A DNA stretch of 64,000 bases from Oleiharenicola lentus (GTDB lineage: Bacteria > Verrucomicrobiota > Verrucomicrobiia > Opitutales > Opitutaceae). Shown here piece by piece: positions 23,554 to 52,110 of the stretch. Positions within the stretch are counted from its first letter, which is position 1, and every line of letters starts with the position of its first letter. The position numbers and the translations under genes are program-made. The stretch covers positions 1,987,693-2,051,692 of the forward strand of contig NZ_SDHX01000001.1 of assembly GCF_004118375.1 (NCBI RefSeq). The letters run 5' to 3'. Under the pieces are notes generated by a model. It saw nothing but the letters and a program-made list of their open reading frames with translations. It was not told where the DNA came from and ran no database searches.

Positions 23554-25799
23554 GGGGTGATAAAGAACCAGCGGGGGTCTGAGTAGCTCCAGGTCTGGGT
23601 GCCGGCCACGGTAATCGCGGTGCCATGCCAGGTGCCGTCGGGAGATCGTTCGGCGCGCAGGTCGGTCCAGCTCACGTTGCCGCGCTCGTAGGCGAAAGTC
23701 TCGCCGTCGTCGTCGTAGAGACGAAGCGCGCCGGGTTTCTCGCCGTAGTGCCACAGCTCAAGCCTGGGAAGCTCCCCGGTGCGCGGGGCTCGCAGCGGCT
23801 CGCCGGCCAGGCGGGGGATGATGGCGCCGTCGCGCACGAAGAGCGGCAGCTGGTCCGCGGGCGGCGTCACGTAGATGGTCGTGTCCTCGCCGGCGAGTCG
23901 CCCGGTGTAAAAGTCGTACCAGCGGCCCGGCGGCAGCACGACCGGGCGTGAGGCGGCGTCCGGGGCAAGCAGCGCCACCAGCAGGGAATCGCCCAGCAGG
24001 TACTGGTCCTTGATCTCCTTGAGGGCGGCCGGCGCCTCGTACGGATTGGTGGTGGCGTCCAGCGCGGGCTGGCCGCCTGGCCCCGCCGTCGTGGCGGCCG
24101 CCGACGTGACGAGCTGGAGCGGACGGATGACGGGGAGACCGTCGAGGTGGTACTGCGCGAAGGTGTGGTAGAGGTAGGGCAGCAACTGCAGTCGCAGGCG
24201 CAGCGCCGCCCGGATGCCCGGCAGCGCCGAGGGGTGGGTCCAGAGCTTCTGGGGGGACGCCCAACCGTTATACAGGGCGAGGGGCGAGAGGCACACGGCC
24301 TGAATGCGCCGGAGCATGTCTTCGGGATTGTCGCTGCCGCGGACCTCGGGCGACCAGAGCACGCCGGCAAAACCGCTGTTGACCACGGCCGTGATGTATT
24401 CGCCGAAGTCGTAGTTGTCGTTGTAGATCACGAACGGGAAGGACGAGGCGCCGGCGTTGGTGCCGCGCACCTGGCCAAACGTTCGGCGATCGAGGGCGCG
24501 AAACTCCTCGAGCAACACGCGCTGGACCAGCAGTCCGTAAGTTTGGCGAAGCTGCTCCGCGTGGTGACCGGACGGGAAGGTTGCGGTTTCGGGCCAGAGA
24601 TAGCGATCGTACCCATCCACCTCGTCCACCTTGAAGCCGCCGACGGCTCGCGGGTGCAGCCGGAGGACTTCGTCGCGGAGGTGTCCCGCGAGGGTGGCGC
24701 GCGCCTCGGGCAGGGTGTAGTCGGGGACCAGGCCGTTCCAGACCAGGTGAGAGCCCGCGAAAGGCAGCATGCGGCCGTAAAGCTTGCCGTGCGGCGGACC
24801 GATGTAGGGATTGAACCACAGGTTTGCGCGCACGCCGAGCCGGTCGAGTTCACCCAGGAGGCCGGCTGGGTCGGGGAAGCGGGTGGGGTCCCATTCGAGC
24901 GAGCACGGGTAGGCGTGGCTCATCCAACCGGGTTCGAGGCCGATCATGTCGAGCGGCAGGCCGTGTTCGCGGAACGCGGCCACATCGGCGAGCACGTCGG
25001 CGGCCGTCGCTTTGGTCGGGAGGCGCGTCAGAAACCCGAGGCCCCATTTGGGCGGCAGGGAGCCGCCGCCGCAAAACAGGTTGTAGCGCCGCAGCGCATC
25101 CATGGGTGAGGGACCGGCGAAGACGTAGACATCGAACCCCGGGGCATTGGCCAGAACTTCGATCGAATCCGAGGGGAGCGCCGAGATCCACGGCGCCGGA
25201 ATCGGTGCGGTGCCCGGTGTGGCGGGACGGATCGTGCGGGTGGTGCGGTCGACGACCGGAGGCTTTTGTTTGGCCGCTAGGCGGACACCGTGTCCCACCG
25301 AGACCTTGAGATAGCGGGCGCTGTCGAACAAGACCGCGAAGCCCCGGCTCGAGATGTAGAGGGGGACCGGCGCATGCGTGCGACCCGGCGTCGGGGCCCG
25401 CCGGTTCCAGTGGTCCACGTGGAGTTCGAAGATCTGGCCGTTGCGCCTCACGGTGCTGAAGTCCACGCCGAGGCCGTAAATGTCCTCGTTGGCGGCGAGC
25501 GGAAGGCGAAGCGCAACCTTCCAATCCATCTGGCGTACCTCGATCTCCGCTGCGTCCAACGGGAACGCCGCCGCGGGGAGGGAGGCCAGTCGCGTCAGTG
25601 CGGGCTGGACGCCCGCCGCGGAGAGCAGGCTGAGATCCTCGGGCTGGCCAAGCGATGCCTTCCACACTCCGGGCGCCACCTGTTGCCAGGAGGGGTTAAC
25701 GGCCTGGGGTGCGGACTGCGCCCCTGACGCCAGGGCAGACAGGAGCAGAGCGGCTGCACCCAATCTCGCGACGGCCCTGTTAAGTAAAACGATATGCAT
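23550..25799 (-). CDS. GH31 alpha-glycosidase (alpha-xylosidase/glucosidase type)
   Basis: 749 residues from the ATG at 25799, with a signal peptide (LGAAALLLSALASGAQSA). The order is the GH31 N-terminal beta domain (NEDIYGLGVDFSTVRRNGQ), the barrel with LPPKWGLGFLTR, DMIGLEPGWM and the likely nucleophile D392 in GGFKVDEVDGYD, GVLWSPEVRGSDNPEDML, then C-terminal beta domains (QYLLGDSLLVALL, LPPGRWYDFYTG). Retaining alpha-glucosidases, alpha-xylosidases and alpha-galactosidases belong here; specificity cannot be fixed from sequence. It heads the operon GH31, lyase-GH88, isomerase, quinoprotein. The ATG lies inside a putative operator (25790-25807), so either the transcript is leaderless and blocked at its start or the true start is slightly downstream. 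Confidence 0.92.
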   Translation of the reverse strand: MHIVLLNRAVARLGAAALLLSALASGAQSAPQAVNPSWQQVAPGVWKASLGQPEDLSLLSAAGVQPALTRLASLPAAAFPLDAAEIEVRQMDWKVALRLPLAANEDIYGLGVDFSTVRRNGQIFELHVDHWNRRAPTPGRTHAPVPLYISSRGFAVLFDSARYLKVSVGHGVRLAAKQKPPVVDRTTRTIRPATPGTAPIPAPWISALPSDSIEVLANAPGFDVYVFAGPSPMDALRRYNLFCGGGSLPPKWGLGFLTRLPTKATAADVLADVAAFREHGLPLDMIGLEPGWMSHAYPCSLEWDPTRFPDPAGLLGELDRLGVRANLWFNPYIGPPHGKLYGRMLPFAGSHLVWNGLVPDYTLPEARATLAGHLRDEVLRLHPRAVGGFKVDEVDGYDRYLWPETATFPSGHHAEQLRQTYGLLVQRVLLEEFRALDRRTFGQVRGTNAGASSFPFVIYNDNYDFGEYITAVVNSGFAGVLWSPEVRGSDNPEDMLRRIQAVCLSPLALYNGWASPQKLWTHPSALPGIRAALRLRLQLLPYLYHTFAQYHLDGLPVIRPLQLVTSAAATTAGPGGQPALDATTNPYEAPAALKEIKDQYLLGDSLLVALLAPDAASRPVVLPPGRWYDFYTGRLAGEDTTIYVTPPADQLPLFVRDGAIIPRLAGEPLRAPRTGELPRLELWHYGEKPGALRLYDDDGETFAYERGNVSWTDLRAERSPDGTWHGTAITVAGTQTWSYSDPRWFFITP

Positions 25800-25807
25800 A
25801 CCGGTAT
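25790..25807. promoter_or_regulatory. Putative operator E (ACCGRTATAYAT family)
   Basis: The minus strand reads ACCGGTATGCAT at 25805-25794, and the perfect palindrome ATACCGGTAT lies at 25798-25807. It matches operator B (ACCGGTATACAT) at 11 of 12 positions. It sits between the divergent GH31 and ConA-like/GH29 operons and overlaps the GH31 start codon. Confidence 0.5.
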
Positions 25808-25882
25808 AGTGCTCGACATTGCCCGGTCGGCAAGCATAGGTTGTGTACGCGCGTCAATTGTCGCCGCTTCACCTCGATCCCC

Positions 25883-26644
25883 ATGTTGCCTCGCAGCCAC
25901 CGTTCGCTTGCCCTGTTGTTTCTCGCCCAAGCCGGCAGCTGGCTCACGCCGTTGGCGGCGCAAGTGGGCGAGGGATGGGTCGAGTATCGCCCCGAGAGGA
26001 AGATTCACCTGGTGGATTTCGAGAACAAGGCGCTGCGGAAGGGCATGAGTTCCCTCGATTGGCGGCCGGCGGCGGCGGTGGGTGGGCCTACGCCGGCCTC
26101 GAGCTATGCGAGCGACGCGACGAGTGAAGTCGAGACCTTCATCCTGCATGACCACCGGGCGAATCGCGCAGAAATCCGGCTGCTCAACGAATATGGCCAA
26201 GGGGCCCGGCAGTTCGAGGGCTACGTGACGTTTTATGCGCCGACGGACGACCAGTCCGTGTTTCAGGTGTGGGGCAGCGACGAGGGGGCGACCCAGTTGA
26301 TGCTGCGTGCCTTCGCGGCAAATGGGGGCGAACTGCGGGTGGCCAACCGGCCGGTCAAGGGCATGCCGGTTGTGGCCTCGGGCGTCAGGGGCCGGGAGGT
26401 GCGCGTGAACATCATCCATCTCCAGGAAGACGCGGGCAACCGGTTCCTCGTCTACGTCGATGGCGCGCTGCGGCTGGAGTTTCCCGACGACGAGTGGGCC
26501 ACGAATCACGACGGGCGCAATTACCACAAATACGGCGTTTACGGGACGCTCCGCGGCGAAAGCGCGCGGGTGCAGTGGCGCCGGGTCCGCCATTTTCGGG
26601 ACGGGCGCCCGCCGGCGGCGCCGCCCCCATCAACTTCGCCATGA
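25883..26644 (+). CDS. Secreted concanavalin A-like (jelly-roll) protein
   Basis: 253 residues from the ATG at 25883; an in-frame ATG at 25841 would add 14 residues before the signal. The signal peptide is HRSLALLFLAQAGSWLTPLAAQ. The mature part has the jelly-roll pattern of short alternating strands found in LamG and PL7/PL20-like proteins: VETFILHDHRANRAEIRLLN, ARQFEGYVTFYAPTDDQSVF, REVRVNIIHL, RFLVYVDGALRLEF and HKYGVYGTLRGESARVQW. It may be a polysaccharide lyase or a glycan-binding protein; I cannot place it in a numbered family. It overlaps the GH29 gene by ATGA and starts the plus operon divergent from GH31. Confidence 0.65.
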   Translation: MLPRSHRSLALLFLAQAGSWLTPLAAQVGEGWVEYRPERKIHLVDFENKALRKGMSSLDWRPAAAVGGPTPASSYASDATSEVETFILHDHRANRAEIRLLNEYGQGARQFEGYVTFYAPTDDQSVFQVWGSDEGATQLMLRAFAANGGELRVANRPVKGMPVVASGVRGREVRVNIIHLQEDAGNRFLVYVDGALRLEFPDDEWATNHDGRNYHKYGVYGTLRGESARVQWRRVRHFRDGRPPAAPPPSTSP

Positions 26645-28155
26645 AATCACTCCTACGCCCCCTCCTGCGCGCCGTCGCCTTGCTGTCCTTCCTGGGCAGC
26701 ACCCGGGCGGAGACGGCGCCATTCACTCCCGAGTGGGAGTCGCTGCAACGCTACGAGTGCCCTGAGTGGTTTCGCGACGCCAAGTTCGGAATCTGGTCGC
26801 ATTGGGGGCCGCAGGCGGTTCCCGGCCAGGGCGACTGGTATGCGCGCAAAATGTACATTGAGGGCGAGAAGGCCTACGAGTGGCACGTCGCGCACTACGG
26901 GCACCCGTCGGTCTTCGGCTACAAGGACATCATCCCGTTGTGGAAGGCGGAAAAGTTCGATCCGGACGCGCTGATGGCGCGCTACGTCAAAGCCGGCGCG
27001 AAGTATTTCGTCTCGATGGGCGTGCATCACGACAACTTCGACCTGTGGAACTCGAAGCACCATCGCTGGAACGCCGTGCAAATGGGACCGAAGAAAGACA
27101 TCGTCGGCCTGTGGGCCGCGGCCGCGCGCAAGCATGGGCTGAGGTTTGGCGTCAGCGAGCACCTCGAGCGCAGCTACAATTGGTTCAACACGAACAAGGG
27201 CGCCGACCAGTCGGGGCCCAAGGCGGGGGTGCCCTACGACGGCAACGATCCGCGCTTCGTCGATCTCTATCATCCTCCGCACGACGACACCGGGTTCCAA
27301 TACCCGAAAAACGCGCCCGAATGGTGGATGCAACAGTGGCAGCGGCGCATGGTCGACCTGCTGGACAGCTACGAACCCGACTTGTTCTATACCGACGGGG
27401 GCGTGCCGTTTGGTCGTTACGGCCGCGAACTCATGGCGCATTACTACAATGTCGGCCTCCGCCTTCACGACGGCCGGCAGGAGGTTGTCTACACGGTGAA
27501 ACGTCGCACCGGCGGGACCCACGGCGAGTTTGTCGACGGCACGGCCGTCGAAAACTTGGAGCGCGGGACAATGACGGAGATCGCGACGGAACCCTGGCAG
27601 TGCGACACGACGGTCGCCGACTGGTTTCCCAGCCCCTCCTACCGCTACAAGACAGCGGCGGAGGTCATCCACCTGCTCTGCGACGTCGTGAGCAAGAACG
27701 GCAATCTGCTGCTCAACTTCACGCAGTATGCCGACGGCACGCTCGAGCCCAAGGCGTCGGAGATCCTCGACGAACTCGCCGCCTGGATGCCCGTCAACAG
27801 CGAGGCGATTTTCGGCACCCGGCCCTGGCGCGTGTTCGGCGAAGGCCCGGGACAGGTCGCAGGTGGTCACTTCAATGAAAAGAACACGCACTTCGACGCG
27901 CGCGACATCCGCTACACGCGCAAAGGCGACACGCTCTACGCGATCCTGCTTGGCTGGCCCGGCGCGAAGGCCGAGATCACGCTGACCGCGCTCGCGCCGG
28001 CCCAGTGGTCCGGCCAGGTGCAAACCGTGACGCTCCTCGGGCAGGACGGCGCGCTCGCCATGAAACAGACCTCAGCCGGCCTGCAGGTCACCTTGCCCGC
28101 GCAGGCCCCGACGCGCCATGCCGTGGTGCTGCGCATCCAAGCCCGAAACCTCTGA
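26641..28155 (+). CDS. GH29 alpha-L-fucosidase
   Basis: 504 residues; the ATG at 26641 overlaps the upstream TGA (ATGA). It has a signal peptide (RPLLRAVALLSFLGSTRAE). The GH29 barrel shows WFRDAKFGIWSHWGPQAVPG, MGVHHDNFDLWNSKHHRWN and the nucleophile D252 in PDLFYTDGGVPFG, followed by DVVSKNGNLLLNF and a C-terminal beta domain. GH29 enzymes release alpha-linked L-fucose with retention. The C-terminal block RYTRKGDTLYAILLGWPG is shared almost unchanged with the next gene, so the two are paralogues. As the second gene of the ConA/GH29/GH29/GH28 operon it should act on the same side chains as its neighbours. Linkage preference is unknown. Confidence 0.93.
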   Translation: MKSLLRPLLRAVALLSFLGSTRAETAPFTPEWESLQRYECPEWFRDAKFGIWSHWGPQAVPGQGDWYARKMYIEGEKAYEWHVAHYGHPSVFGYKDIIPLWKAEKFDPDALMARYVKAGAKYFVSMGVHHDNFDLWNSKHHRWNAVQMGPKKDIVGLWAAAARKHGLRFGVSEHLERSYNWFNTNKGADQSGPKAGVPYDGNDPRFVDLYHPPHDDTGFQYPKNAPEWWMQQWQRRMVDLLDSYEPDLFYTDGGVPFGRYGRELMAHYYNVGLRLHDGRQEVVYTVKRRTGGTHGEFVDGTAVENLERGTMTEIATEPWQCDTTVADWFPSPSYRYKTAAEVIHLLCDVVSKNGNLLLNFTQYADGTLEPKASEILDELAAWMPVNSEAIFGTRPWRVFGEGPGQVAGGHFNEKNTHFDARDIRYTRKGDTLYAILLGWPGAKAEITLTALAPAQWSGQVQTVTLLGQDGALAMKQTSAGLQVTLPAQAPTRHAVVLRIQARNL

Positions 28156-28168
28156 TGCCCCCGTCATC

Positions 28169-29743
28169 ATGAGCCTGCGCTTCCTCCCTGTTCCTGCTCG
28201 CCTGCTGCTGCTGACCTCCGCGGTCAGCCTGTTTGCCGCGGAGCCGAAGCAAACCGACGCCGCCGACACGATCGAGGCCAGCGATGAGCGAAATGCCGGC
28301 CGCGTTCGCGTCGAGGCGCTGACGCCCGGTCCCTTTGCGCCCAACTGGGAATCGCTGGCCGCCTACGAGACGCCGGACTGGTTTCGTGACGCGAAATTCG
28401 GCATTTTCATGCACTGGGGCATCCCCGCGGTGACCGACGAAACGCGACCGTTCGGCACGGGCCACTATGCGCGCGGCATGTACTGCCAGCACGGCCGGGG
28501 CGCGCCGCCGCACTGCAAGGACATCTACGACTGGCACGTGCAGCGCTACGGGCACCCGTCGCAGTTCGGCTACAAGGACCTCATCCCCCTCTGGCGGGCA
28601 GAACGATTCGACGCCGACGCGCTCGTCGCGTTCTACAAGGAGATCGGCGCGCGCTACATCGTGCCGGTGGCGGTCCATCACGACAATTTCGACGTCTACG
28701 ACTCCTCCTTCACGCGCTGGGATGCGAAGGACATGGGACCGAAGCGCGACATTCTGGGCGAGTGGCGACAGGCCGCGCTCCTGCACGGTCTGCGCTTTGG
28801 CACGTCCTCGCACCTCGACCGCGCGCCCAGTTTCCTCGAGATGTCGCACCGGGCGGACACGGACGGCCCGATGGCGGGCGTGCCCTACGACGGGGCCGAT
28901 GACCGCTACGCGGATTTCTACCTCAAGGGAGTGACGCCCGAGCAATGGCAGCAGCATTGGTACCAGCGGACGCGCGAGATCGTGACGAAGTACCAGCCGG
29001 ACCTGCTTTATTTCGACGGCGCGCTACCGTTCGGCGACTACGGGCTCAACATTGCGGCGGAACTCTACAACAGGAGCATCGCGCGCCACGGCCGCAACGA
29101 AGCGGTTCTGAACCTGAAACGCGGCCCGAACCCCAAGGCCTTCGTTCTCGACATCGAGCGGGGCCAGTCGGACAAGATGCTGGAGCACGCGTGGCAGACA
29201 GACACGACGCTGATCAGCGGCTGGTTCTACCATCGGGCGGAGCTCGAGATAACCACGCCGGTGGTGATCGCCAACCTGGCCGACATCGTGAGCAAGAACG
29301 GCAACCTCCTGCTTAACATCGGCCTCAAGCCCGACGGCACGATTCCCGACAACCAGCGCCAGACCCTGGTCGGGGTGGGGCGCTGGCTTAAGCTGAACGG
29401 TGAGGCAATCTACGGCACGCGACCCTGGAAAGTGTACGGCGAGGGCCCGACCCAGGTGAAGGCCGGACACTTCAACGAACCGAAGTCCGCCTACACCGCG
29501 CAGGACATCCGGTTCACCCGCAAGGGCGACACCCTGTACGCGATCCTGCTTGGCTGGCCGGGGAACGACGCCGAGGCGGCCATCAGCTCCCTGCGCGCCG
29601 GCGAGACCGCGCGCCCGGTGACGAGCGTGGAAATGCTCGCGACGTCGGAAAAGCTGGCCTTCCGCCAAACTGAAGGTGCGCTACGGGTGATCCTTCCCCG
29701 AGCACAGGAGGGTGAGCATGCCTACGTCCTGCGCATCCGCTGA
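28169..29743 (+). CDS. GH29 alpha-L-fucosidase, second copy
   Basis: 524 residues from the ATG at 28169, 13 bases after the previous gene, with a signal peptide (VPARLLLLTSAVSLFAAE). It shows WFRDAKFGIFMHWGIPAVTD, VAVHHDNFDVYDSSFTRWD and the nucleophile D283 in PDLLYFDGALPFGDYG. An insertion relative to the first copy lies around YARGMYCQHGRGAPPHCKD and adds two cysteines. The C-terminal half parallels the upstream enzyme (IVSKNGNLLLNIGL, RFTRKGDTLYAILLGWPG). Different active-site loops suggest a different acceptor or linkage preference from its neighbour (inference). Confidence 0.93.
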   Translation: MSLRFLPVPARLLLLTSAVSLFAAEPKQTDAADTIEASDERNAGRVRVEALTPGPFAPNWESLAAYETPDWFRDAKFGIFMHWGIPAVTDETRPFGTGHYARGMYCQHGRGAPPHCKDIYDWHVQRYGHPSQFGYKDLIPLWRAERFDADALVAFYKEIGARYIVPVAVHHDNFDVYDSSFTRWDAKDMGPKRDILGEWRQAALLHGLRFGTSSHLDRAPSFLEMSHRADTDGPMAGVPYDGADDRYADFYLKGVTPEQWQQHWYQRTREIVTKYQPDLLYFDGALPFGDYGLNIAAELYNRSIARHGRNEAVLNLKRGPNPKAFVLDIERGQSDKMLEHAWQTDTTLISGWFYHRAELEITTPVVIANLADIVSKNGNLLLNIGLKPDGTIPDNQRQTLVGVGRWLKLNGEAIYGTRPWKVYGEGPTQVKAGHFNEPKSAYTAQDIRFTRKGDTLYAILLGWPGNDAEAAISSLRAGETARPVTSVEMLATSEKLAFRQTEGALRVILPRAQEGEHAYVLRIR

Positions 29744-29750
29744 ATTCTCC

Positions 29751-31217
29751 ATGATCGCACCGCCAGTCCTCGTGCGCGTGTCAGGGCGGGTGATGGCTGC
29801 GGCGGGCCGCGGCCGGCCGGCCCGGTCCCTCCTGGCAATCCTCGCGTTGGCGAGCATGCGCCTGCTCGGGGCCGACGCCCCGGCCGAGGGGTGGGCGGCG
29901 CGGGATGCCGTGCTCGCGCGCATTGTGGCGCCCACGTTCCCGGCGCGGGACTTCGACGTGAAGACGTTTGGTGCGAGCCCGCTGGGGCGTTTCGACGCGC
30001 GCGAGGCGTTTGCCAAGGCCATCGCGGCCTGCACCGCGGCCGGCGGCGGACGCGTGGTCGTGCCGGCACCGGGAGTCTACTATGTGGAGGGGCCGATTCA
30101 CCTCGCGAGTAACGTCAACCTGCACATCGAGCGCGGGGCCACGATCGTGTTTGGCGTGCTTCCGCAGTCCTACCTGCCTGTCGTGCTCACCCGGTTCGAG
30201 GGTACGATGCTGATGGGGCACTCGCCCCGGATCTATGCGCGCGGGGCGCGGAATGTGGCGATCACAGGAGGCGGCACGATCGACGGGAATGGGCGCGACT
30301 CCCTGGTCGTGATGCGTGACGCGCCGGGGCGCGCGGGGTCGGGGACCCTGCGCCAAATGGGGTCGGAGGGGGTGCCGGTGGCCGGGCGCGTTTTCGGCGA
30401 GGGACGTTGGCTGCGTTCCAGCATGATCCAGTTCCTCGAATGCGAACAGGTGTTGATCGAAGGCGTGAAGGTCGTCGATTCGCCGTTTTGGGTGATCCAC
30501 CCGGTCCTCTGCCGCAACGTGACCGTGCGCGGCGTGACGGTGGAAAGCTGGAACGGCAACAATGACGGCTGCGATCCCGATTCGAGCTCGGATGTGCTGA
30601 TTGAGGACTGCATTTTCCGCACGGGCGACGATTCCATAGCGATCAAGTCCGGGCGCGATCAGGACGGATGGGCCGTGGGCCGACCGTCCGAAAACATCGT
30701 CATCCGCAACGTGGTGATGGGCTCGCGGCATGCGGGGGTGTGCATCGGCAGCGAGATGTCCGGTGGCGTGCGCAACGTGTGGGTCGAGAATTGCACCGTG
30801 GAATCGGCCAGTTCGGCCTTCTACTTCAAGGCCAACCTTGATCGCGGCGGGGTCGTGGAGAATTTTCATGCGCGTGACATCACGGTGCAGAAGGCGCGCG
30901 AGGCGGTGATTCGCTTTGGCACGACCTACCATGGCTATCGGGGCGGAAACTTTCCGCCCGTGTTCCGCCGGTTCGAGATCACGGACCTCCTGTGCCGCGA
31001 GTCGGAGAAGCTGGGGGTGAGTCTCGACGGCCAACCCGCCGCGCCGATTGAGGACGTCCGGCTGCGGCGCGTGAAGATCGAGCGGGCCGGCGAGCCGCTT
31101 TGGTTGCGTCACACGCGGGGCGTGCGTTTCGACGACGTCGAAATCAATGGCCAGCGGCTGCCCGCGGAGCCGGTCGATACGCCGGCGGTGCAGGCCCGGC
31201 CCGAGATCAGTGCGTGA
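29751..31217 (+). CDS. GH28 polygalacturonase-family enzyme
   Basis: 488 residues from the ATG at 29751, 7 bases after the GH29 stop. A signal sequence is present (ARSLLAILALASMRLLGAD). The beta-helix begins with DFDVKTFGASPLGRFDAREA and AAGGGRVVVPAPGVYYVEG. Catalytic aspartates are in NGNNDGCDPDSS and TGDDSIAIKSG. The usual G-H-G loop reads SRHAGVCIGSEMSGGVRNVW, keeping only the histidine, and FYFKANLDRGG replaces the R-I-K block. Such changes occur in exo-acting or rhamnogalacturonan-type members, so attack on pectic or similar galacturonan-containing chains is likely, but the exact backbone is open. It is the last gene of the operon and converges with the dehydrogenase gene at 31275. Confidence 0.9.
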   Translation: MIAPPVLVRVSGRVMAAAGRGRPARSLLAILALASMRLLGADAPAEGWAARDAVLARIVAPTFPARDFDVKTFGASPLGRFDAREAFAKAIAACTAAGGGRVVVPAPGVYYVEGPIHLASNVNLHIERGATIVFGVLPQSYLPVVLTRFEGTMLMGHSPRIYARGARNVAITGGGTIDGNGRDSLVVMRDAPGRAGSGTLRQMGSEGVPVAGRVFGEGRWLRSSMIQFLECEQVLIEGVKVVDSPFWVIHPVLCRNVTVRGVTVESWNGNNDGCDPDSSSDVLIEDCIFRTGDDSIAIKSGRDQDGWAVGRPSENIVIRNVVMGSRHAGVCIGSEMSGGVRNVWVENCTVESASSAFYFKANLDRGGVVENFHARDITVQKAREAVIRFGTTYHGYRGGNFPPVFRRFEITDLLCRESEKLGVSLDGQPAAPIEDVRLRRVKIERAGEPLWLRHTRGVRFDDVEINGQRLPAEPVDTPAVQARPEISA

Positions 31218-35473: not shown

Positions 35474-35475
35474 CT

Positions 35476-35510
35476 GATATACACACCGATATACATAATA
35501 TATATCGGGT
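35476..35510. promoter_or_regulatory. Putative operator A (ACCGRTATAYAT family)
   Basis: ACCGATATACAT lies at 35485-35496, and CCGATATA at 35486-35493 is mirrored by TATATCGG at 35501-35508, a perfect 8-bp inverted repeat with a 7-base spacer. GATATACA is also repeated at 35476-35483 and 35488-35495. The site sits directly upstream of the FucU/AKR operon. Confidence 0.6.
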
Positions 35511-35586: not shown

Positions 35587-35602
35587 ACCGGTATACATCG
35601 GT
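35587..35602. promoter_or_regulatory. Putative operator B, autoregulatory (ACCGRTATAYAT family)
   Basis: ACCGGTATACATCGGT is a near-palindrome (ACCG...CGGT around GTATAC) ending 2 bases before the regulator's ATG at 35605. It shares 11 of 12 bases with operator A. The position, in place of a ribosome binding site, suggests autorepression. Confidence 0.6.
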
Positions 35603-35604
35603 CC

Positions 35605-36705: not shown

Positions 36706-36795
36706 GCCGGAGGCTGCGGCCGCCCCTGCGGTTCACTTCCCTCCCGACCCGGGAGCGGGCGGAGCCATGGCCGTTTTTGAAAAAATGGCTTGAAT

Positions 36796-36819
36796 AGTAT
36801 ATCAGAATATATATCGGTC
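36796..36819. promoter_or_regulatory. Putative operator C (ACCGRTATAYAT family)
   Basis: The minus strand reads ACCGATATATAT at 36819-36808; the other half (TAGTATAT at 36796) is degenerate. It lies about 155 bases before the start of the first TonB-dependent receptor gene, in the 269-base gap after the regulator. The rest of that gap shows no gene. Confidence 0.5.
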
Positions 36820-44315: not shown

Positions 44316-44425
44316 TCCGCATAAATTCCGCCGCCCGGTTGAGCTGACCGGGCCGCGAATCTGACCACAATTGCGATCCGGATGGTCCTATTATACAGGG
44401 TAGCGCCGCCCAGGATCGTTTGGGG

Positions 44426-44475
44426 GAGGGGAGGAGTGGCAGCCGAAAGGCCTGCTGCGCCTCCCCTCTTCCTTG
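44426..44475 (+). terminator. Probable terminator of the receptor operon
   Basis: GAGGGGAGG at 44426-44434 pairs with CCTCCCCTC at 44460-44468, with a nested GCAG/CTGC stem in the loop, followed by TTCCTTGTTT. The rest of the 416-base gap 44316-44731 holds no gene, only a separate palindrome at 44497 and presumably the promoter of the phosphatase gene. Confidence 0.55.
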
Positions 44476-44496
44476 TTTCTGGACCGGCGTATCGGG

Positions 44497-44513
44497 GCGA
44501 GGGTATACCTCGC
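44497..44513. promoter_or_regulatory. Palindrome upstream of phosphatase gene
   Basis: GCGAGG, spacer GTATA, CCTCGC: perfect 6-bp arms about 220 bases before the ATG at 44732. It has the size of a LacI-type operator but does not match the ACCGRTATAYAT motif. A regulator-binding function is a guess. Confidence 0.35.
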
Positions 44514-44731
44514 GTCGCATCGGAGCGGAGTTGCCGCAATGCGGCCTACAGGGGGACGGCAACACCTTCGCCGACGCTGACCTTGGGATTCGAGGGCTGC
44601 TTTACGTTCGCGGGTGCCACGGTTTTCGGCGTACCACGATTTACAGCGATGAATATCAGCACGGGAGCGCCGCGAGGCTTTCGTGACCTGCCACCAGCTT
44701 GGTTTGCTGAATCGCACGACGACTGCTCCCC

Positions 44732-46093
44732 ATGAAATTGCTCGCTTCTTCTCTGCTCGGAATAGCGTCGGTCACGGCTGGCTTCGCCCACAACACTCCC
44801 GCGTCCGAACCGTGGCGGCCCACGGCTTACGCTGACCGGCTGACCCACGCGCCGCGGCCGCTCCCGGATCGGATCGTGCTGACGTGGCGTCAGGACCCCG
44901 CGACCACGCAGGCCGTCACGTGGCGCACCGATGCTTCGGTAGTCCAAGGCGTGGCTGAAATCGCTCTGGCCAACGAACAGGGGCGCGAGCTTCGGGCGCG
45001 CGCGGTGCCGGCGGTCACGACGGAATTCGAATCCAATCTCGGTCCGGCGAATTTCCACACCGCGGAATTCACCGACCTCACGCCCGACACGCTGTATGCC
45101 TATCGCGTGGGCGACGGCGCCAACTGGAGCGAGTGGTTTCAGTTTCGCACCGCGAGTCGGACGGCCCGGCCCTTCAGTTTCATTTACTTCGGCGACGCGC
45201 AGAATGACATCAAGACGCATTGGTCGCGCGTCTTCCGCGAGGCCTTTCGCGAGGCGCCGCGGGCCGCGTTCACCCTCCACGCCGGCGATCTGGTCAGCGA
45301 AGGCAACAATGACGAGCAATGGGGCGAATGGTTCGGGGCCCCCGCCTGGGTCAACGCGACGATTCCCGTCGTTGCCACCCCGGGTAATCACGAATACCGC
45401 CGTGCCGATGAACGGGATGAGAAGTCCCCGCGGGTCCTCAGCCGGCACTGGCGTCCGCAGTTTGCCCTGCCGGAGAATGGCCCGGCCGGCGTGCCCGAGT
45501 TAATTGAGACGACCTACTTCTTCGATTACCAGGGCGCGCGCATCATTTCGCTCAATTCAAACACCCGCCAGGCCGAGCAGCAGGCCTGGCTGCGGGAAGT
45601 GCTGAGCCAGAATCCCCAGCGCTGGACGATCGTGACTTTCCACCATCCGATCTTTTCGCCGGCACGCGACCGCGACCACGCCAACCTCCGGGCGGCGTGG
45701 AAGCCCCTCTTCGATGAGTTCAAGGTGGATCTCGTCCTGACCGGGCACGATCACACCTACGCACGCAGTGGCGACCTCGGTGACCGCATCCCAGTCGGCA
45801 CGGTTAACGCCAAGCCGGGTTACCAGCAGATCTACGATCCCGCCATCGGCACAGTTTACGTGGTGTCGGTCAGCGGGCCCAAGATGTATAAGCTAACCGG
45901 GGGGGAGTGGGCGGTGCGAACCGCCGAGAACACGCAGTTGTTCCAAGTCGTCACGGTCAACGGCGATGAACTCCGGTTTGAGGCGCGCACCGCCGTCAAC
46001 CGCCTGCACGATGCCTTCACCCTGCGAAAGCGCCCCGGCCAGGCAAACGAGCTGATCGAGCATCTGCCGCCACAATCCGATCGCTCACCTTGA
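44732..46093 (+). CDS. Purple acid phosphatase-like metallophosphoesterase
   Basis: 453 residues from the ATG at 44732, with a signal peptide (LLASSLLGIASVTAGFAH), so it is secreted. An N-terminal FN3-like domain (DRIVLTWRQDPATTQAVTWR, FTDLTPDTLYAYRVGDG) precedes the catalytic domain, as in purple acid phosphatases. Metal ligands are in IYFGDAQ, LHAGDLVSEG, ATPGNHEYRR, VTFHHPIF and LTGHDHTYAR. It should hydrolyse phosphomonoesters outside the cytoplasm. It follows the receptor operon after 416 bases with its own putative terminator/palindrome region, so it may be regulated separately. It converges with the GH29 gene, leaving only 12 bases between the two stop codons. Confidence 0.88.
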   Translation: MKLLASSLLGIASVTAGFAHNTPASEPWRPTAYADRLTHAPRPLPDRIVLTWRQDPATTQAVTWRTDASVVQGVAEIALANEQGRELRARAVPAVTTEFESNLGPANFHTAEFTDLTPDTLYAYRVGDGANWSEWFQFRTASRTARPFSFIYFGDAQNDIKTHWSRVFREAFREAPRAAFTLHAGDLVSEGNNDEQWGEWFGAPAWVNATIPVVATPGNHEYRRADERDEKSPRVLSRHWRPQFALPENGPAGVPELIETTYFFDYQGARIISLNSNTRQAEQQAWLREVLSQNPQRWTIVTFHHPIFSPARDRDHANLRAAWKPLFDEFKVDLVLTGHDHTYARSGDLGDRIPVGTVNAKPGYQQIYDPAIGTVYVVSVSGPKMYKLTGGEWAVRTAENTQLFQVVTVNGDELRFEARTAVNRLHDAFTLRKRPGQANELIEHLPPQSDRSP

Positions 46094-46105
46094 GCGCGCG
46101 TTGGT

Positions 46106-47611
46106 TTATTCGGAGGGGCTCTGACTCTGCGTTTCGATGCGCAACACGTGGGCGAGCGCATCGTCCAGCGCCGGTAGTTCGAGGGTGAGGACCCCTTTCT
46201 CGTTTCGCCACTCCAGCGGCTCTGCTCGGCCGAACAAGGTGATCTTCGACCCAGGTTTGGCGGCGACCGAGGTCAGCTGGAAGCTGGCGCTGTCAGGTTT
46301 TCGCAGGAGAATGGCATACACGTGGCGGCCGTCGCGTGAGGTGGTGAAGCGCACGTGTTCCCCCTCCTTCCAGAGGTCGCCGCGGCGTATGTCGGTGTCC
46401 CAAATGGCTTCACCGTTTACCTTCAGCCAGGCGCCGACCTCCTCAAGCTGGCGGATGGCCTCGGGGTGAAACTCGCCGGCGCCGTTGGGGCCGATGCCCA
46501 CCATGAAGTTGCCGCCCTTCGCGACGGAGTCGACCAGGTTGTCCACGACCCATTTGGCACCTTTGTGTTGGGCGGCGTCGCCTTCCCACGAGAAGTTGCG
46601 GCCGAGCGGGTAGATGACCATCCAAGGCAGTCCGGTGGCCTGCTCGGACGGCACGGTGCGCTCAGGGGTGTAGTAGTCGCCGTAGTTGCCGATGCCGCGA
46701 TTGCGGATCATCACATCGGGCTGCCACTGGCGCACGAGCTTGATGGTTTCCCGCAACTGTGGCCAGACCTCGCCGCCGAGTTGGATGTCGAGGCAGAGCA
46801 TGTCGATCTTGCCATACTGCGTCAGCAACTCGTGCAACTGCTCACGGTGGCGCGCCATCATGTGCGTGATCTCATCCGGTGTGGGGTCAGGGAAAAGCAC
46901 GGCCGGACGCTTTTGTCGCTCCTCGAGCGATTTCACGCTCTTGGAACTCACGTTTTGAATCGGGTGCCGTCCATAGGGGCGGAACGAGACGTCATACCAG
47001 TCGGAGTGGGAGAAATAGAGGTTGATCTTCAGCCCGTGCCGGCGGCCGGCGTCGGTGAGTTCGCGGATGATGTCCCGCTTGAAAGGCGTCTCCATCACGC
47101 TGTAGGCCACATCGCAGTCTTCTATGAAAGGTTTCCCCGGGATGCTGAAATTCGGCCGTTGTTTCACGCGGGTCTTGGTGTCCCAGAGCGAGAAGCCCTC
47201 GTGGTGTTTCGTCGTGATGGCGAAACACTGGAAGCCGGCGCGCTGGAAGAATTCCATCCAGCCGTTGGCGTCGAACTTCGTGGGGTTCCAGTGCTGGTGG
47301 GACTCGAGCCACTTCTGCCGCTCCTCGTCGGATTGCTCGAGGAAGGTCCACGATTCGCGCGCGTGGGGCAGCAGGGAGTAAAGGCCCCAGTGGATGCGCA
47401 CGCCGTATTTCATGTTGCGAAACTCCTGGTGGGCCGCGGCGGACGCGTGGCGGTAATCCGACTGGGGCACCTCTTCGACGTAGGAAGCATTTCCCTGGCG
47501 CACGCTCTCGGGTAACCGCAGAGTGCTTTCACGGTCGGCGGAGGCAGCGGAGGCGGTGAGGCTGGCGGCCAGCAGGGCCGTCACGAGGAGGGGGGCGTGA
47601 GGGGATTGCAT
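46106..47611 (-). CDS. GH29 alpha-L-fucosidase, third copy
   Basis: 501 residues from the ATG at 47611, with a signal peptide (APLLVTALLAASLTASAASA). It shows FRNMKYGVRIHWGLYSLLPH, AITTKHHEGFSLWDTKTR, INLYFSHSDWYDVSFRPYGR and the probable nucleophile D275 in IDMLCLDIQLGGEVWP. It then has SVAKGGNFMVGIGPNGAGEF and a beta C-terminal domain. It is clearly diverged from the pair at 26641-29743 and keeps the more classical KHHEGF-type motif, so it probably belongs to another GH29 subgroup with a different linkage preference. It is the last gene of the operon Zn-dehydrogenase, SDR, GH95, GH29. Confidence 0.92.
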   Translation of the reverse strand: MQSPHAPLLVTALLAASLTASAASADRESTLRLPESVRQGNASYVEEVPQSDYRHASAAAHQEFRNMKYGVRIHWGLYSLLPHARESWTFLEQSDEERQKWLESHQHWNPTKFDANGWMEFFQRAGFQCFAITTKHHEGFSLWDTKTRVKQRPNFSIPGKPFIEDCDVAYSVMETPFKRDIIRELTDAGRRHGLKINLYFSHSDWYDVSFRPYGRHPIQNVSSKSVKSLEERQKRPAVLFPDPTPDEITHMMARHREQLHELLTQYGKIDMLCLDIQLGGEVWPQLRETIKLVRQWQPDVMIRNRGIGNYGDYYTPERTVPSEQATGLPWMVIYPLGRNFSWEGDAAQHKGAKWVVDNLVDSVAKGGNFMVGIGPNGAGEFHPEAIRQLEEVGAWLKVNGEAIWDTDIRRGDLWKEGEHVRFTTSRDGRHVYAILLRKPDSASFQLTSVAAKPGSKITLFGRAEPLEWRNEKGVLTLELPALDDALAHVLRIETQSQSPSE

Positions 47612-47622
47612 GGGGAAACGAG

Positions 47623-50190
47623 TCAGTTGTGCGGCGAGACGGAATAGCTGGCGCCCGCGGCGACGTCGAACTCGATGACCCCGGCGGCGATCGCGCGCGT
47701 GGTGACCGGCTCGCCGTCGTTGCGGATGATGACGGGCTGGGGTGTCCGCAGGCGGCAAACGCCGTCGCGGGACGCCCGGATTTCCGCGGAGGCCAGGCGG
47801 CCGTCGCGCCAGGCGACGTCCACGCCATAACCGCCGCGGGCGCGGAGGCCGCGGAGCGAGCCGGTGGCCCAGGCGCGGGGCAGCGCGGGGAGCAGTTCGA
47901 TCTCGCCCGCGTGCGACTGCATGATCATCTCGACCATGCCGGCCGCGATGCCTTGGATGGCCTGGTTGCCTTCCATGGAGGGCACGCGATCGCTGTCCTC
48001 CGGGGCGGGGTGCTTCGAAATGCTGGTCTGGAGGTGGCGGATAAGTTCGTAACAACGCTCGGCGTCGCCGAGGCGGGCGTGCAGGTTGATCTTCCACGCG
48101 CCGGTCCAGCCGGCGGGGTCGTCGCGGATCACGAGCGTTTTCCGCACGGCCTCGGCCAGCTCGGGTGTGCCGCGTCGGGTGATCTGGTTGCTGGGGTAGA
48201 AGGCATAGAGGTGCGACACATGGCGATGCTTTGGGTCGAACTCCTTCCAGGGCTTGAGCCATTCCATGAGCGTTCCGTCGGCGCGCACCAGGTGCGGGGG
48301 GAGGCGCGGCAGGGCGGCGTTGAGCTCGGCCTGGAGGGCATCGTCCACCTGCAGCTCCCGCGCGGCGGCGAGGGTCCAGGTGAAGACATCACGCAGCAAC
48401 TGGTTGTCGATGGCACAGCCCATCGTGATGGAGTTGCGCACGCCCTCCTTTGGATTCGGCAGGCCGTCGTGCAGCAGCGCGCGTCCGTCCACGAGCACAA
48501 AGCCGTTTTCCGGGGAGCCGGACGGCGAGGGGACGAGCCAGCGGTGGGTCGGCTCCTCGACCAGCATGTCCAAGCCGAATTCTGCCGCGCCCTTCAGCAG
48601 CGGGTAGATGCGCCGCAGGGTGGCGGGATCCGGGTTATAGAGGTAGTGCTCCCAGAGGTGTTGCGTCAGCCAGACGCCCATCAGGGGCGCCATGCCATGG
48701 AAGACGCGGTCGGTCATGGCGGTGTTCATCCAGACGTCGGTGCCGTGGTGGGCCGTCCAGCCGCGGGCGCCATAGTTGCCCCGGGCGGTGCGCGCACCGC
48801 TGGCCGCCAGGTCCTCGATAAAACTGAAGAGGGACTCGACCGTGCTGGGCAGGCCCGTGGTTTCGGCGGGCCAGTAGCATTCCTGGATGTTGATGTTGAG
48901 CGTCCAGCGGCCGCGCCAGCGGCCCTTGAGGTCATCGAGCCAGATGTTGTGGTTGTTGAACGCCATTGTGCCGGGCCGGGAATCCGCGATCAGCAGGTAG
49001 CGGGCGAACTGGAAGTATTGGGCGGTATAAAGCGGATCGGCCGCGCCGGCGCGGATGCGGTCCATGCGCGTGGTCGTGTCGTCCTGCGCGGCCGCGGTTC
49101 CACCGAGGTCGAGGCGGCAGGCGCGGAAAAGTGGCTGATAGTCCAGGATGTGCCGTTGCTTCAATTCGGCGAACGACCGCCGGGCGGCGTCGCGGATGTA
49201 GCCGGCGCAGCGGGCGTCGGGGTCGGCCGAGATATCATTCCAATTTACGTAATTGGTGGCGCCGGCGAGGATGAGGGTGACGGCATCGGCTTGCTCGACC
49301 CGCACGCTTGTCCCGCTGGCATCTCGCACGATGCGCGTGGTTCCGCCGTCTGCGATCACGCGCAGCCGGCCCTGCCAGCGCATGCGGCTGGGAACCTCGG
49401 GATTCGGCTCCGAGACGCCGCCTTGGATGAGGATCGTGTCTTCACCCAGTGCGCTCTCGGTCGTGGAGGTATGGAGGCTGCTGAGCCCGGCCGTGAAGGT
49501 CAGGCTTCCGGGCTGGTCCGCGCTGAGGCGCATCACCACGACCTGGTCGGGGTAGCTCGCGAAAGCCTCCCGACGGTAGGTGGTGCCGCCGATGCGGTAG
49601 GTGACGCGGGCCACGGCCTCGTCGAGATCGAGGTCGCGCCGGTAATCGCTGGCTTCGTCGTGGCCGTCGAAGCGCAGGTGCAGCCGGCCCATCGCTTGGT
49701 AAGTCTGCACAAAGGGCAGGGGATGGCTCAACAGGTTGGCCGCCAGCTCGGCCGCCTCTCCGAACTTCTCCTCGGCGATCAGCTTCCGGATCTCGGGCAG
49801 CGAGGGGAGGGCCTTCGGGTTCACCGCGTCGTAGGGTGAGCCGGTCCAGAGGGTCTCGTCGTTAAAGGGAATGATCTCGTCCTTCACTCGTCCGTAGAGC
49901 ATCGCCCCAAAGCGGCCCGTGGCGATGGGCACGCCCTCCCAGAAGCGGGTGGCGGGGGTGCGATACCACCAGCTCATCAGTTGCGCCGGCGGCGTGGCCT
50001 GGCCGCTCAGCCGCGCATCTCCGGGCAAGTTTTCCGGGTTGCCGTGGGCGATGGCGCGGGCGACCAGTTGCTCCTCGGTGGGCGTCGCATTCTGGGCGGC
50101 GGCCGGGGGCAGCAGGGTGGCGAGGGCGCAGGCGGCGAGGCTCCAGGAGAGCGCACTCCGCCGGAGGAGGGCAGGGGCAGGCGGCATCAT
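47623..50190 (-). CDS. GH95-family enzyme with altered catalytic base
   Basis: 855 residues from the ATG at 50190, with a signal peptide (SLAACALATLLPPAAAQ). The order is the N-terminal beta domain (WEGVPIATGRFGAMLYG, FNDETLWTGSPYD), linker, and alpha/alpha barrel with LNINIQECYWPAETTG (N432, N434), LMEWLKPW (E643) and [16 protein letters not shown]. Where fucosidases such as AfcA have D in F-Q-I-D-G-N-F-G, this protein reads PSMEGNQAIQG, with E740 and three extra residues. GH95 members act on alpha-1,2-L-fucosides or alpha-L-galactosides by inversion; the changed base may go with another substrate. It lies 11 bases before the GH29 gene. Confidence 0.88.
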   Translation of the reverse strand: MMPPAPALLRRSALSWSLAACALATLLPPAAAQNATPTEEQLVARAIAHGNPENLPGDARLSGQATPPAQLMSWWYRTPATRFWEGVPIATGRFGAMLYGRVKDEIIPFNDETLWTGSPYDAVNPKALPSLPEIRKLIAEEKFGEAAELAANLLSHPLPFVQTYQAMGRLHLRFDGHDEASDYRRDLDLDEAVARVTYRIGGTTYRREAFASYPDQVVVMRLSADQPGSLTFTAGLSSLHTSTTESALGEDTILIQGGVSEPNPEVPSRMRWQGRLRVIADGGTTRIVRDASGTSVRVEQADAVTLILAGATNYVNWNDISADPDARCAGYIRDAARRSFAELKQRHILDYQPLFRACRLDLGGTAAAQDDTTTRMDRIRAGAADPLYTAQYFQFARYLLIADSRPGTMAFNNHNIWLDDLKGRWRGRWTLNINIQECYWPAETTGLPSTVESLFSFIEDLAASGARTARGNYGARGWTAHHGTDVWMNTAMTDRVFHGMAPLMGVWLTQHLWEHYLYNPDPATLRRIYPLLKGAAEFGLDMLVEEPTHRWLVPSPSGSPENGFVLVDGRALLHDGLPNPKEGVRNSITMGCAIDNQLLRDVFTWTLAAARELQVDDALQAELNAALPRLPPHLVRADGTLMEWLKPWKEFDPKHRHVSHLYAFYPSNQITRRGTPELAEAVRKTLVIRDDPAGWTGAWKINLHARLGDAERCYELIRHLQTSISKHPAPEDSDRVPSMEGNQAIQGIAAGMVEMIMQSHAGEIELLPALPRAWATGSLRGLRARGGYGVDVAWRDGRLASAEIRASRDGVCRLRTPQPVIIRNDGEPVTTRAIAAGVIEFDVAAGASYSVSPHN

Positions 50191-50204
50191 GGCGGGGAAA
50201 TGGG

Positions 50205-50996
50205 TCAGGATTTGCGCGGTAGGGCGCGGGTTGCGCCGCCGGAAATGCCGCCGTCCACGAGCAGCGTTTGGGCGGTGATGTAGGCGCTGGCGTCGGAGGC
50301 AAGAAACACGACGGCGCCGTCGAGGTCGGCGGGCTGGCCGGGGCGCTTGAGCGGGATCCGATCACAGAGGTAATCCACCCACTCCTGATTTTCATACATC
50401 ACCGCGTTTTGCGCCGTCTTGAACCAGCCGGGAGCGAGGCAGTTGACGGTGATTCCATGCGGGCCCCAGTCGTCGGCCAGGCTCATGGTGAGCTGCTTCA
50501 CGCCGCCGCGGCTCGCGCCGTAGGGGGCGAGACCGGCGTAGCCCGCCACGCAGGTCACGGACCCGATGTTTATGATCCGGCCGTATCGCCGCGTAATCAT
50601 GTGGCGCGCGACGGCCTGCGCCACGAAGAAGGTGCCGCGCAGGTTGGTGTCGAGGATGGTGTTCCAGTCGTCCCAAGTGACGTGGAGCGCGGGCTTGCGG
50701 ATATTGCAGCCGGCGTTGTTCACCAGAATATCAATCCGGCCAAAGTGGGCGACGGCGGCATCGGCCATGGCCGTGATGCTGCGGGGATCGCGCACATCCA
50801 GCGCCAGCGGCAGGACGCGGCGGCCCAAAGGCGCCAGTTCGCTGATGAACGGCGCCAGTTTGGCCGCGTCGCGACCCGTGAGCACGAGATCGGCCCCGGC
50901 GCGGGCGAGCGCCCGGGCGAAATACTGGCCGAGGCCGCGGGTGGCGCCCGTGACGAGCGCAACCTTGCCGGTGAGGTCGAACAGGGGGGAGTTCAT
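50205..50996 (-). CDS. Short-chain dehydrogenase/reductase with YxxxR motif
   Basis: 263 residues; the ATG at 50996 overlaps the stop of the upstream dehydrogenase as ATGA. The classical SDR layout is present: cofactor loop VTGATRGLG, ILVNNAGCN, catalytic Ser in INIGSVTCVAG, and Tyr159 in APYGASRGGVKQ. The lysine of the YxxxK pair is replaced by Arg163; the next lysine is K167. The C-terminus (DGAVVFLASDASAYITAQTL followed by LVDGGISGG) is typical of gluconate 5-dehydrogenase-like enzymes. It is probably cytoplasmic, working on a sugar or sugar acid with the Zn-dehydrogenase encoded just upstream. Whether the Arg variant is active is open. Confidence 0.88.
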   Translation of the reverse strand: MNSPLFDLTGKVALVTGATRGLGQYFARALARAGADLVLTGRDAAKLAPFISELAPLGRRVLPLALDVRDPRSITAMADAAVAHFGRIDILVNNAGCNIRKPALHVTWDDWNTILDTNLRGTFFVAQAVARHMITRRYGRIINIGSVTCVAGYAGLAPYGASRGGVKQLTMSLADDWGPHGITVNCLAPGWFKTAQNAVMYENQEWVDYLCDRIPLKRPGQPADLDGAVVFLASDASAYITAQTLLVDGGISGGATRALPRKS

Positions 50997-52036
50997 GAGG
51001 CAGCGTCGGGGGTGAGAATCACCTTCAGCAGGCCGGGTTCGCGCCGATAGAGCCGGTCGAACCACGCGGGGCCCTCGCGCAACGGGGCGACCGCGCTGAG
51101 CAGCGGCTTGGCGGAAATCTTGCCGCGTGCCATCATGTCGAGGCACGCCGGATATTCGCCGGCCGAGGCGCAACTACCGTAGATCGAGAGCTCGCGCGTG
51201 ACCACCACCTGCAGCGGCAACGGCACTTGAGGCGTGACATTGCCGACCAGCGTGACGCCGCCGCCCTTGCGGGCCGCGCGCAGCGCCAGGTCGACTGTCG
51301 CGGCCACGCCGACCGCCTCGAAGACATGATCGAAACCGCGGCCGCCGGTCAGCTTAAGCAGAACGTCAAGCGAGTGGCCGTCGGCGGAATTCACCGCGTC
51401 GTCCACCCCGAGGTTCCTGGCTTGCTGCAACCGGTCGTGGGCCGTGTCGACCGCGACGATGCGACCATAGCCCGCCAGGCGGGCGGTTTGCAGGAGGGCC
51501 AGCCCGATCATGCCGCAGCCGATGATGAGGGCGGAGTCGTTGAGCTGCGCCGCGTGGCGGCGCACCGCGTGGAAGGCGATAGTGAACGGCTCGATCAGCG
51601 CCGCTTCCGCGAAGGACAGATTCTCCGGCAGGCGGTACAGGATGCGCTCGGGGACGACGACGTAGTCGGCGAACGCGCCCGGCTGGCGGTAATCCTCACA
51701 CGAGACGCCCAGCACGCGGCGATGGTGGCACAGGTTCACCTCGCCCCGGCGGCAGTGCTCACACTGCCCGCAGTAGATCGTGGAGTCGAAAGTCACGCGC
51801 TCGTCCGCCTGCCAAGCGGTGACGCCCGGGCCCACGGCCGCAATGGTGCCGGCGGCCTCATGCCCCATCACGATCGGCGGCCGGCGCCGGCCGGTGGAGC
51901 CGTCCATGCCGTGGACATCGCTGCCGCAGATGCCGCAGGCCTTGATGGCCACGAGCACCTCACCCGGGCCGGGTTTCGGCGTGGGGATATCCTCCAGATT
52001 GAACCTCATCGCGTCGGTCAGGATCAAAGCTTGCAT
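50993..52036 (-). CDS. Zinc-dependent medium-chain polyol/sugar dehydrogenase
   Basis: 347 residues from the ATG at 52036; the longer frame to 52207 runs through operator D and is not protein-like. Motifs: catalytic zinc at KACGICGSDVHG and VMGHEAAGTI, structural zinc cysteines in IYCGQCEHCRRGEVNLCHH, and the NAD-binding loop ALIIGCGMIGLALLQ. It belongs to the sorbitol/threonine dehydrogenase group of MDR enzymes, oxidising a polyol or sugar at a secondary alcohol. With the adjacent SDR it could oxidise L-fucose or another released monosaccharide (inference). It heads the operon that ends with GH95 and GH29 and is divergent from a second GH95 gene. Confidence 0.9.
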   Translation of the reverse strand: MQALILTDAMRFNLEDIPTPKPGPGEVLVAIKACGICGSDVHGMDGSTGRRRPPIVMGHEAAGTIAAVGPGVTAWQADERVTFDSTIYCGQCEHCRRGEVNLCHHRRVLGVSCEDYRQPGAFADYVVVPERILYRLPENLSFAEAALIEPFTIAFHAVRRHAAQLNDSALIIGCGMIGLALLQTARLAGYGRIVAVDTAHDRLQQARNLGVDDAVNSADGHSLDVLLKLTGGRGFDHVFEAVGVAATVDLALRAARKGGGVTLVGNVTPQVPLPLQVVVTRELSIYGSCASAGEYPACLDMMARGKISAKPLLSAVAPLREGPAWFDRLYRREPGLLKVILTPDAAS

Positions 52037-52086
52037 CGGGTGAATCGTGGGTGGCAGGCCGAAGGGCACATCAAGGGTTGACGACA

Positions 52087-52110
52087 ACCGATATATCAAG
52101 CGATATATAG
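52087..52110. promoter_or_regulatory. Putative operator D (ACCGRTATAYAT family)
   Basis: ACCGATATATCA at 52087-52098 is followed by GCGATATATAG to 52110, giving two CGATATATA-like half sites in direct order. It lies between the divergent Zn-dehydrogenase (52036) and GH95 (52148) genes, 38 bases from the latter's ATG. Confidence 0.5.

Follow-up and report, generated by a model that had tools for sequence, protein, structure and literature searches.

A doubled, probably same-direction operator in the fucose locus of Oleiharenicola lentus and its probable reader, an AraR-type regulator whose recognition helix is altered

Which regulator reads the short DNA word that recurs at the promoters of the fucose locus of Oleiharenicola lentus, and in which form is the word read? 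The locus lies in a stretch of 64,000 nucleotides (contig NZ_SDHX01000001.1, positions 1,987,693 to 2,051,692), called the window here. A first-pass annotation of the window had proposed the 12-bp motif ACCGRTATAYAT as the operator of a hybrid regulator at 35605. The idea of an operator stands, but its unit is not the 12-mer. A second same-direction copy lies 12 bp away from the ACCGRTATAYAT word, and the site alignment gives a 24-bp element of two 12-bp boxes, NCCGATATACAN-WCCGATATACTT, most simply a tandem direct repeat. The main detail is that an AraR-type regulator whose recognition helix is altered probably reads this element, and probably takes its two boxes in the same direction.

Each of the five places named by the first-pass annotation carries the motif or a close variant of it, and the coordinates given there are right within one base, the minus-strand copy placed at 36819-36808 lying at 36818-36807. 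With at most two mismatches, ACCGRTATAYAT has 13 matches in the window compared with 2.74 expected, and none of 100 shuffles reaches 13. Nine of these are found at the five promoter or start positions of the first-pass annotation (25788/25794, 35485/35498, 35587/35591, 36807 and 52087/52099). The other four (6549, 24264, 38495, 58276) are lone matches within long open frames. The whole genome, two contigs with 4.71 Mb in total, contains the exact motif three times, each time in the window. With at most one mismatch there are 15 matches, five of them in the window, versus four for the backward control; among the ten outside, only C1:909747 recurs in a search with the tandem pattern, at three mismatches. 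The two inverted repeats described earlier also exist, one at 35486-35508 with perfect 8-bp arms and one at 35587-35602 with matches on both strands.

The doubled element has four full copies in the window, Table 1. With at most two mismatches the tandem pattern gives four matches in the window, compared with 0.017 on average in 60 dinucleotide shuffles, none of which has more than one, and five in the whole genome, four of them in the window. The match outside, at G000:C2:8722, has two mismatches and is absent from the matches of both profile searches described below. A model trained on sites from two other genomes with an ortholog of the regulator (G013 and G140) recovers the sites at 36795 and 52087, and on the plus strand the site at 25782, which spans the first ATG of the glycoside hydrolase (GH) family 31 frame. 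Its top match in the own genome (E 0.0065) is the FucU site at 35473, the end of which is 109 bp upstream of the regulator ATG. The position and orientation of the FucU site are the same in the own genome, G013 and G140. In G140, the site at 36795 has a counterpart at C109:16613, upstream of an 80% identical receptor, the site at 52087 a near-identical one at C109:3619, upstream of a Zn-dehydrogenase, and the site at 25782 a weaker one at C109:24534. The degenerate box next to the FucU site was not seen in the sequences that flank the FucU sites of G013 and G140. The copy at the regulator itself, 35587, is real; however, it is a single box, with at most 5 of 9 core letters matched at +12 or -12, and of the two orthologs only that of G140 has a comparable box, 17 bp before its ATG. 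A profile built from all 15 collected sites found nothing scoring above 9 in the G140 regulator locus (L017). The single box is a candidate weak autoregulatory site.

Judging from the sequences, the two boxes are more likely read in the same direction than as a palindrome with an extra half-site. We compared the partners of eight half-motif sites, five from the window and three from G013. Seven have a same-direction partner at +12 or -12 that agrees in 6 to 9 of 9 core letters, the exception being 35587 with 5. When the better of two offsets is taken at each site, the direct mean is 7.5 of 9, compared with 6.5 for the two strongest inverted offsets. In the alignment of the 15 sites the column similarity is 1.29 at shift 12 and at most 0.11 at the other shifts from 3 to 17, whereas inverted pairs reach 0.95 and 0.91. 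The reverse half-site is poorly kept, its ATA (columns 11-13) being complete in 2 of 15 sites while the TAT of columns 6-8 is found in 13 and that of columns 18-20 in 10, counts that lean to the direct reading since the collection pattern fixed the columns of both TATs and left columns 11-12 free.

The alternative with most in its favour keeps the regulator and the regulon but takes the operator to be the palindrome CGRTATRYATAYCG plus an additional half-site, which would make the direct repeat a by-product. Several observations favour it and count against the direct repeat. At four of the five sites of the first-pass annotation the best partner within 40 bp, over all offsets, is inverted, and the site at 25782, readable on either strand, is nearly palindromic, as is the regulator's own. 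The highest means in the eight-site test also belong to inverted offsets, 6.25 at -5 and 6.0 at +3, above the 5.75 of direct +12 alone; both of these offsets overlap the box itself, which has its own dyad symmetry. Further, the 24-bp alignment is itself biased toward a direct repeat, and weaker extra half-sites have been described 7-12 nt from palindromic GntR sites (PMC4494728). Given the poorly kept reverse half-site and the lower inverted mean in the best-of-two comparison, we consider the palindrome rather unlikely.

To which regulator does the element belong? The proposal that it marks the regulon of the hybrid regulator is supported by the co-occurrence of the two across genomes, in one of which they are unlinked. 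Close orthologs of the regulator are present in 3 of 150 genomes of the family, including the own one. The other two, G013 (75% identical) and G140 (82%), come from two other genera, and the six other genomes of the own genus have no match to the regulator. Twelve further family genomes that match at E<=1e-25 contain relatives of 28-34% identity. An order-wide search found matches to the regulator at E<=1e-45 in 2 of 372 genomes, G140 evidently lying outside that sample. Among the matches listed in a scan of GTDB, at least one is a close relative (in the same genome as G140) and at least 14 are distant, 13 actinobacterial and one from Clostridia; in viral contigs no relative was found.

The element follows this distribution. 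With at most one mismatch, the tandem pattern has 15 matches in the 150 genomes, seven in the three carriers of the regulator and eight single ones in 8 of the 147 others, and the backward control has 5. With at most three mismatches the carriers have 33, 31 and 27 matches versus 11, 4 and 10 for the backward controls, from which most matches at this level are background. At the FucU loci (20 of 30 matches listed, flanks of up to ~1.5 kb on each side) all three with a regulator ortholog have sites scoring 31-37, and none of the 17 without it has one (best 10.9, compared with a training minimum of 23.9). The profile from 11 sites of G013 and G140 has four matches at E<=10 in the own genome, which are the four window sites (E 0.0065-0.24), and four in 19 ortholog-free genomes, the best with E 1.6. 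In the three genomes, the only match at E<=10 that the profile from all 15 sites adds to those it was trained on is the opposite strand of 25782.

In G013 the locus is kept together with the same element: FucU lies beside the regulator, with receptors, GH95, GH29, a short-chain dehydrogenase/reductase (SDR) and the phosphatase. Strong sites are found between FucU and the regulator, before one receptor and before a tripartite ATP-independent periplasmic (TRAP) transporter. Two further receptors are preceded by weaker sites; one of these receptors lies ~50 kb away and shares 76% identity with the second receptor of the window. The site at the TRAP transporter (L055:14862-14885) lies just before DctP and DctM genes, and the transporter perhaps stands in for the major facilitator superfamily (MFS) transporter of the window's FucU unit. 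In G140 the regulator is on contig C68, unlinked from the fucose cluster on the 75-kb contig C109. Nine frames sampled around it are ATP-binding cassette transporter, MFS, TonB/sigma-type and unknown genes, and in the 57 kb read around it the only relative of the window's genes is a 29% identical GH29, 12 kb away. C109 encodes FucU (84% identical), receptors, GH95, dehydrogenases and others. Of the 27 tandem matches that this genome has with at most three mismatches, five lie on C109, and two of the five overlap. The sites on C109 precede FucU, a receptor and the Zn-dehydrogenase, and a weaker one lies between GH88-like and fucosidase genes, as in the window.

The element also stands before a GFO/IDH/MocA oxidoreductase gene in G013 (L090:9654-9777, two sites 100 bp apart) and in G140 (L089:9536-9559). 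The two proteins are 54% identical and the gene is unlinked from the fucose cluster; it is likely a further member of the regulon in these genomes. For the nearest relative in the own genome (42% identical), the profile searches reported no nearby site.

Some points weigh against assigning the element to this regulator. G013 and G140 carry sites outside the cluster too. Among the 17 ortholog-free FucU genomes there are incomplete ones (completeness as low as 80%), and another FucU of G140, on C60, is outside the count. Both profile searches scored at most 150 candidates per genome, and the profile from G013 and G140 is a consistency test and not a blind one, as its 11 sites were partly collected by their resemblance to the window. 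Finally, only three genomes carry the pair, and co-occurrence may therefore partly reflect inheritance as a set. With all this counted, we still find it very probable that, whatever the geometry of the boxes, the sites form one regulon of the hybrid regulator.

A different regulator could read the motif instead, for instance the LacI protein at 57953 or one encoded elsewhere. The own genome contains 18 matches to this LacI protein, itself included, and the binding of the hybrid regulator is something we infer. However, the closest relatives of the LacI protein are 35% identical in G013 and 45% in G140, compared with 75% and 82% for the hybrid regulator, and the sites are missing where the hybrid regulator is missing. 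Eight frames of C109, a part of those on the contig, were scanned with Pfam and showed no regulator family. We regard a different reader as improbable. The LacI-family regulator (57953-58984) has a 48% identical relative ~68 kb away in the same genome and, by its position, may be tied to the oxidoreductase and symporter genes at 59-63 kb, outside this regulon.

The hybrid regulator carries both marks of the AraR subfamily, an N-terminal GntR winged helix (PF00392, E 2.6e-12, residues 27-84 of the open frame starting at 35572) and a C-terminal sensor of the GalR/LacI type (PF13377, E 2.7e-25). The sensor of Bacillus subtilis AraR, 3tb6, is second among its PDB matches. All three orthologs share the recognition helix GVNFLTIRKAV, in which Phe takes the position of the AraR arginine R41, which contacts a G; according to a table in PMC4494728 the arginine at this position contacts G in both AraR and FadR. 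In a hand alignment the position of AraR E30, a residue that works together with the recognition-helix arginine (PMC4218819), is Gln, and an Arg is kept at the position of FadR Arg-35. The altered recognition helix fits the altered form of the operator, and the one may have caused the other. It is conceivable, although we would not favour it, that this branch of AraR-type GntR/LacI regulators gave up palindromic operators for tandem same-direction ones through replacement of the arginine that reads the base, and that it binds as neighbouring asymmetric dimers in the manner of NanR.

The distant relatives of the regulator (17 loci, L019-L035, 28-34% identity) were tried as carriers of the motif and rejected, as no site scores above 10.8. 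Their upstream regions, read for 16 of the 17, show no clear common operator. Upstream of L024, L029 and L033 there are AT-rich inverted repeats of the TGTATT/AATACA type, possibly ordinary palindromic operators, and L029 and L033 keep the usual SR helix.

How would such an operator work? We lean towards the following explanation. The regulator would read the 24-bp operator of two same-direction 12-bp boxes NCCGRTATAYNN. Over the promoters of the fucose locus, or immediately downstream of them, dimers of the regulator would occupy the doubled box and keep the locus repressed. The fucosidases and dehydrogenases of the locus itself would supply the inducer, either L-fucose or a product of its oxidation, and binding of the inducer to the LacI-type domain would release the DNA. 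The single box at the start of the regulator would perhaps serve a weaker self-control. That the regulator binds, that it represses rather than activates, and what induces it are all points that we infer.

The promoters agree with this in part. In each of the three genomes the FucU site directly adjoins the start codon, and a -35-like TTGACC or TTGACG is located 10-11 bp before the operator (35480-35520 in the window). This would place a -10 region within the operator, which is what one expects where a repressor binds. A TTGA in that orientation is found upstream at 9 of 16 sites; that none was seen at the other seven counts against this explanation. TTGAA or TTGAC directly abuts the operator at 36795, at 52087 and at C109:3619 of G140. 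The promoter placement and the LacI-type sensor together argue for repression that is lifted by a sugar. This is the usual mode of the regulator family. Because of the gene content, L-fucose or its oxidised product appears the likeliest inducer.

The same placement could mean that the element is a part of the promoter of a special sigma factor, with TATATC as a -10-like box. The element contains TATATC and lies at starts, and a promoter-like match overlaps the site at 36795. However, this match is the only one in 35350-37050, where 0.4 are expected, and the element is doubled with a fixed spacing and concentrated in the genomes that have the regulator, which makes a promoter part very improbable. 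Chance matches in AT-rich intergenic DNA, of which the four single half-motif matches in open frames might be examples, can practically be discounted given the shuffle counts for the half motif and the tandem pattern and the conservation at orthologous promoters.

Nearly all of 17.8-54.9 kb had been proposed to form one utilisation locus, and this is supported: the units that cover this region, as deduced from gene spacing, have the four full sites at their starts. In NCBIfam the FucU protein matches D-ribose pyranase and L-fucose mutarotase best, in both cases short of the cut-off. The first protein of the unit at 25883 has no Pfam match and keeps the ConA-like label of the first-pass annotation, and the first hydrolase-like gene of the unit at 36843 is labelled by BLAST resemblance only. 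At 39918-41469 two adjacent 3-keto-disaccharide-hydrolase-like genes lie between the two TonB receptors, and side-by-side pairs that match them in BLAST are also found in G013 and G140.

Table 1. Putative operator sites and genes of the fucose locus, in coordinates of the window. PQQ, pyrroloquinoline quinone.
Feature	Position	Strand	Context or basis
Putative operator ACCGGTATGCAT/ATCGTTTTACTT	25782..25805	minus	between divergent GH31 and ConA-like/GH29/GH28 units
Putative operator TCTGATATACAC/ACCGATATACAT	35473..35496	plus	abuts FucU start codon (FucU unit, minus)
Degenerate further box	35497..35510		completes inverted repeat seen in first-pass annotation
Single box ACCGGTATACAT	35587..35598	plus	18 bp before regulator ATG; exact motif
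Putative operator ACCGATATATAT/TCTGATATACTA	36795..36818	minus	upstream of TonB-receptor unit
Putative operator ACCGATATATCA/AGCGATATATAG	52087..52110	plus	between Zn-dehydrogenase/SDR/GH95/GH29 unit (minus) and second GH95 (plus)
Regulator, GntR winged helix and LacI-type sugar-binding domain, AraR-type	35605..36705	plus	PF00392, PF13377 (Pfam)
FucU/RbsD mutarotase, first gene of the putatively controlled unit	35039..35473	minus	PF05025
Aldo/keto reductase, MFS transporter, glucose/sorbosone-type dehydrogenase with cytochrome c domain (rest of FucU unit)	31275..35035	minus	Pfam
GH31, GH88-like, TIM-barrel isomerase-like, PQQ dehydrogenase	17786..25799	minus	Pfam (GH88-like below cut-off)
ConA-like gene, two GH29 fucosidases, GH28	25883..31217	plus	Pfam
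Two TonB-dependent receptors, two 3-keto-disaccharide-hydrolase-like genes, purple acid phosphatase	36843..46093	plus	Pfam; probably one unit
Zn-dehydrogenase, SDR, GH95, GH29 unit	46106..52036	minus	Pfam; unit from gene spacing
Second GH95 fucosidase	52148..54892	plus	PF22124

Among known systems, AraR of Bacillus subtilis has the same architecture, a GntR winged helix with a LacI-type sensor, and controls a sugar regulon that includes its own promoter through several operators, some of them paired (PMC4218819). However, AraR operators are palindromic (consensus with GTaCGTAc, GTACGTAC type), whereas the sites here share the NCCGRTATAYNN boxes without that palindrome. AraR serves arabinose genes and the locus here contains fucose genes. 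NanR of Escherichia coli is a GntR-family repressor of a sugar locus that acts on same-direction repeats. In the 15 sites collected here from three genomes a 12-bp direct period is favoured, but inverted partners also score well. The sensor of NanR is of the FadR type; the regulator here has a LacI-type one instead. NanR binds (GGTATA)3 with cooperating dimers and requires at least two repeats at close spacing (PMC8012715). Its repeat is GGTATA, and the boxes here contain GRTATA. In NanR the operator has three repeats and the protein a 32-residue N-terminal extension, compared with two boxes at a 12-bp period and a LacI-type sensor here.

FucR (BT1272) of Bacteroides thetaiotaomicron is entered in PMC3878776 under the GntR family, with fucose genes as its targets. 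Its regulon is one catabolic operon, unlike the one described here. In Bacteroides, glycan loci are controlled through direct-repeat operators by SusR-like and by hybrid two-component regulators, but they belong to different protein families and their site distances are 21 (on average), 67 or 77 bp and not 12 (PMC3878776). Same-direction repeats have further been described for the GntR proteins FarR, NagQ and those of the MocR type (PMC4494728), and with NanR these examples mean that direct repeats are not new for GntR proteins. Among the open-licence papers listed in our searches we found neither a direct-repeat operator for an AraR-type hybrid nor an operator for an Opitutaceae glycan or fucose locus. 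The principle of regulation is ordinary; what is unusual in a regulator of this kind is the doubled word, probably read in one direction. For a fucose locus of the Opitutaceae the comparison yields a testable regulon, backed across three genomes. On a small scale, nature also provides here an example where the form of the operator and one residue of the recognition helix differ together from a well-studied regulator of the same architecture.

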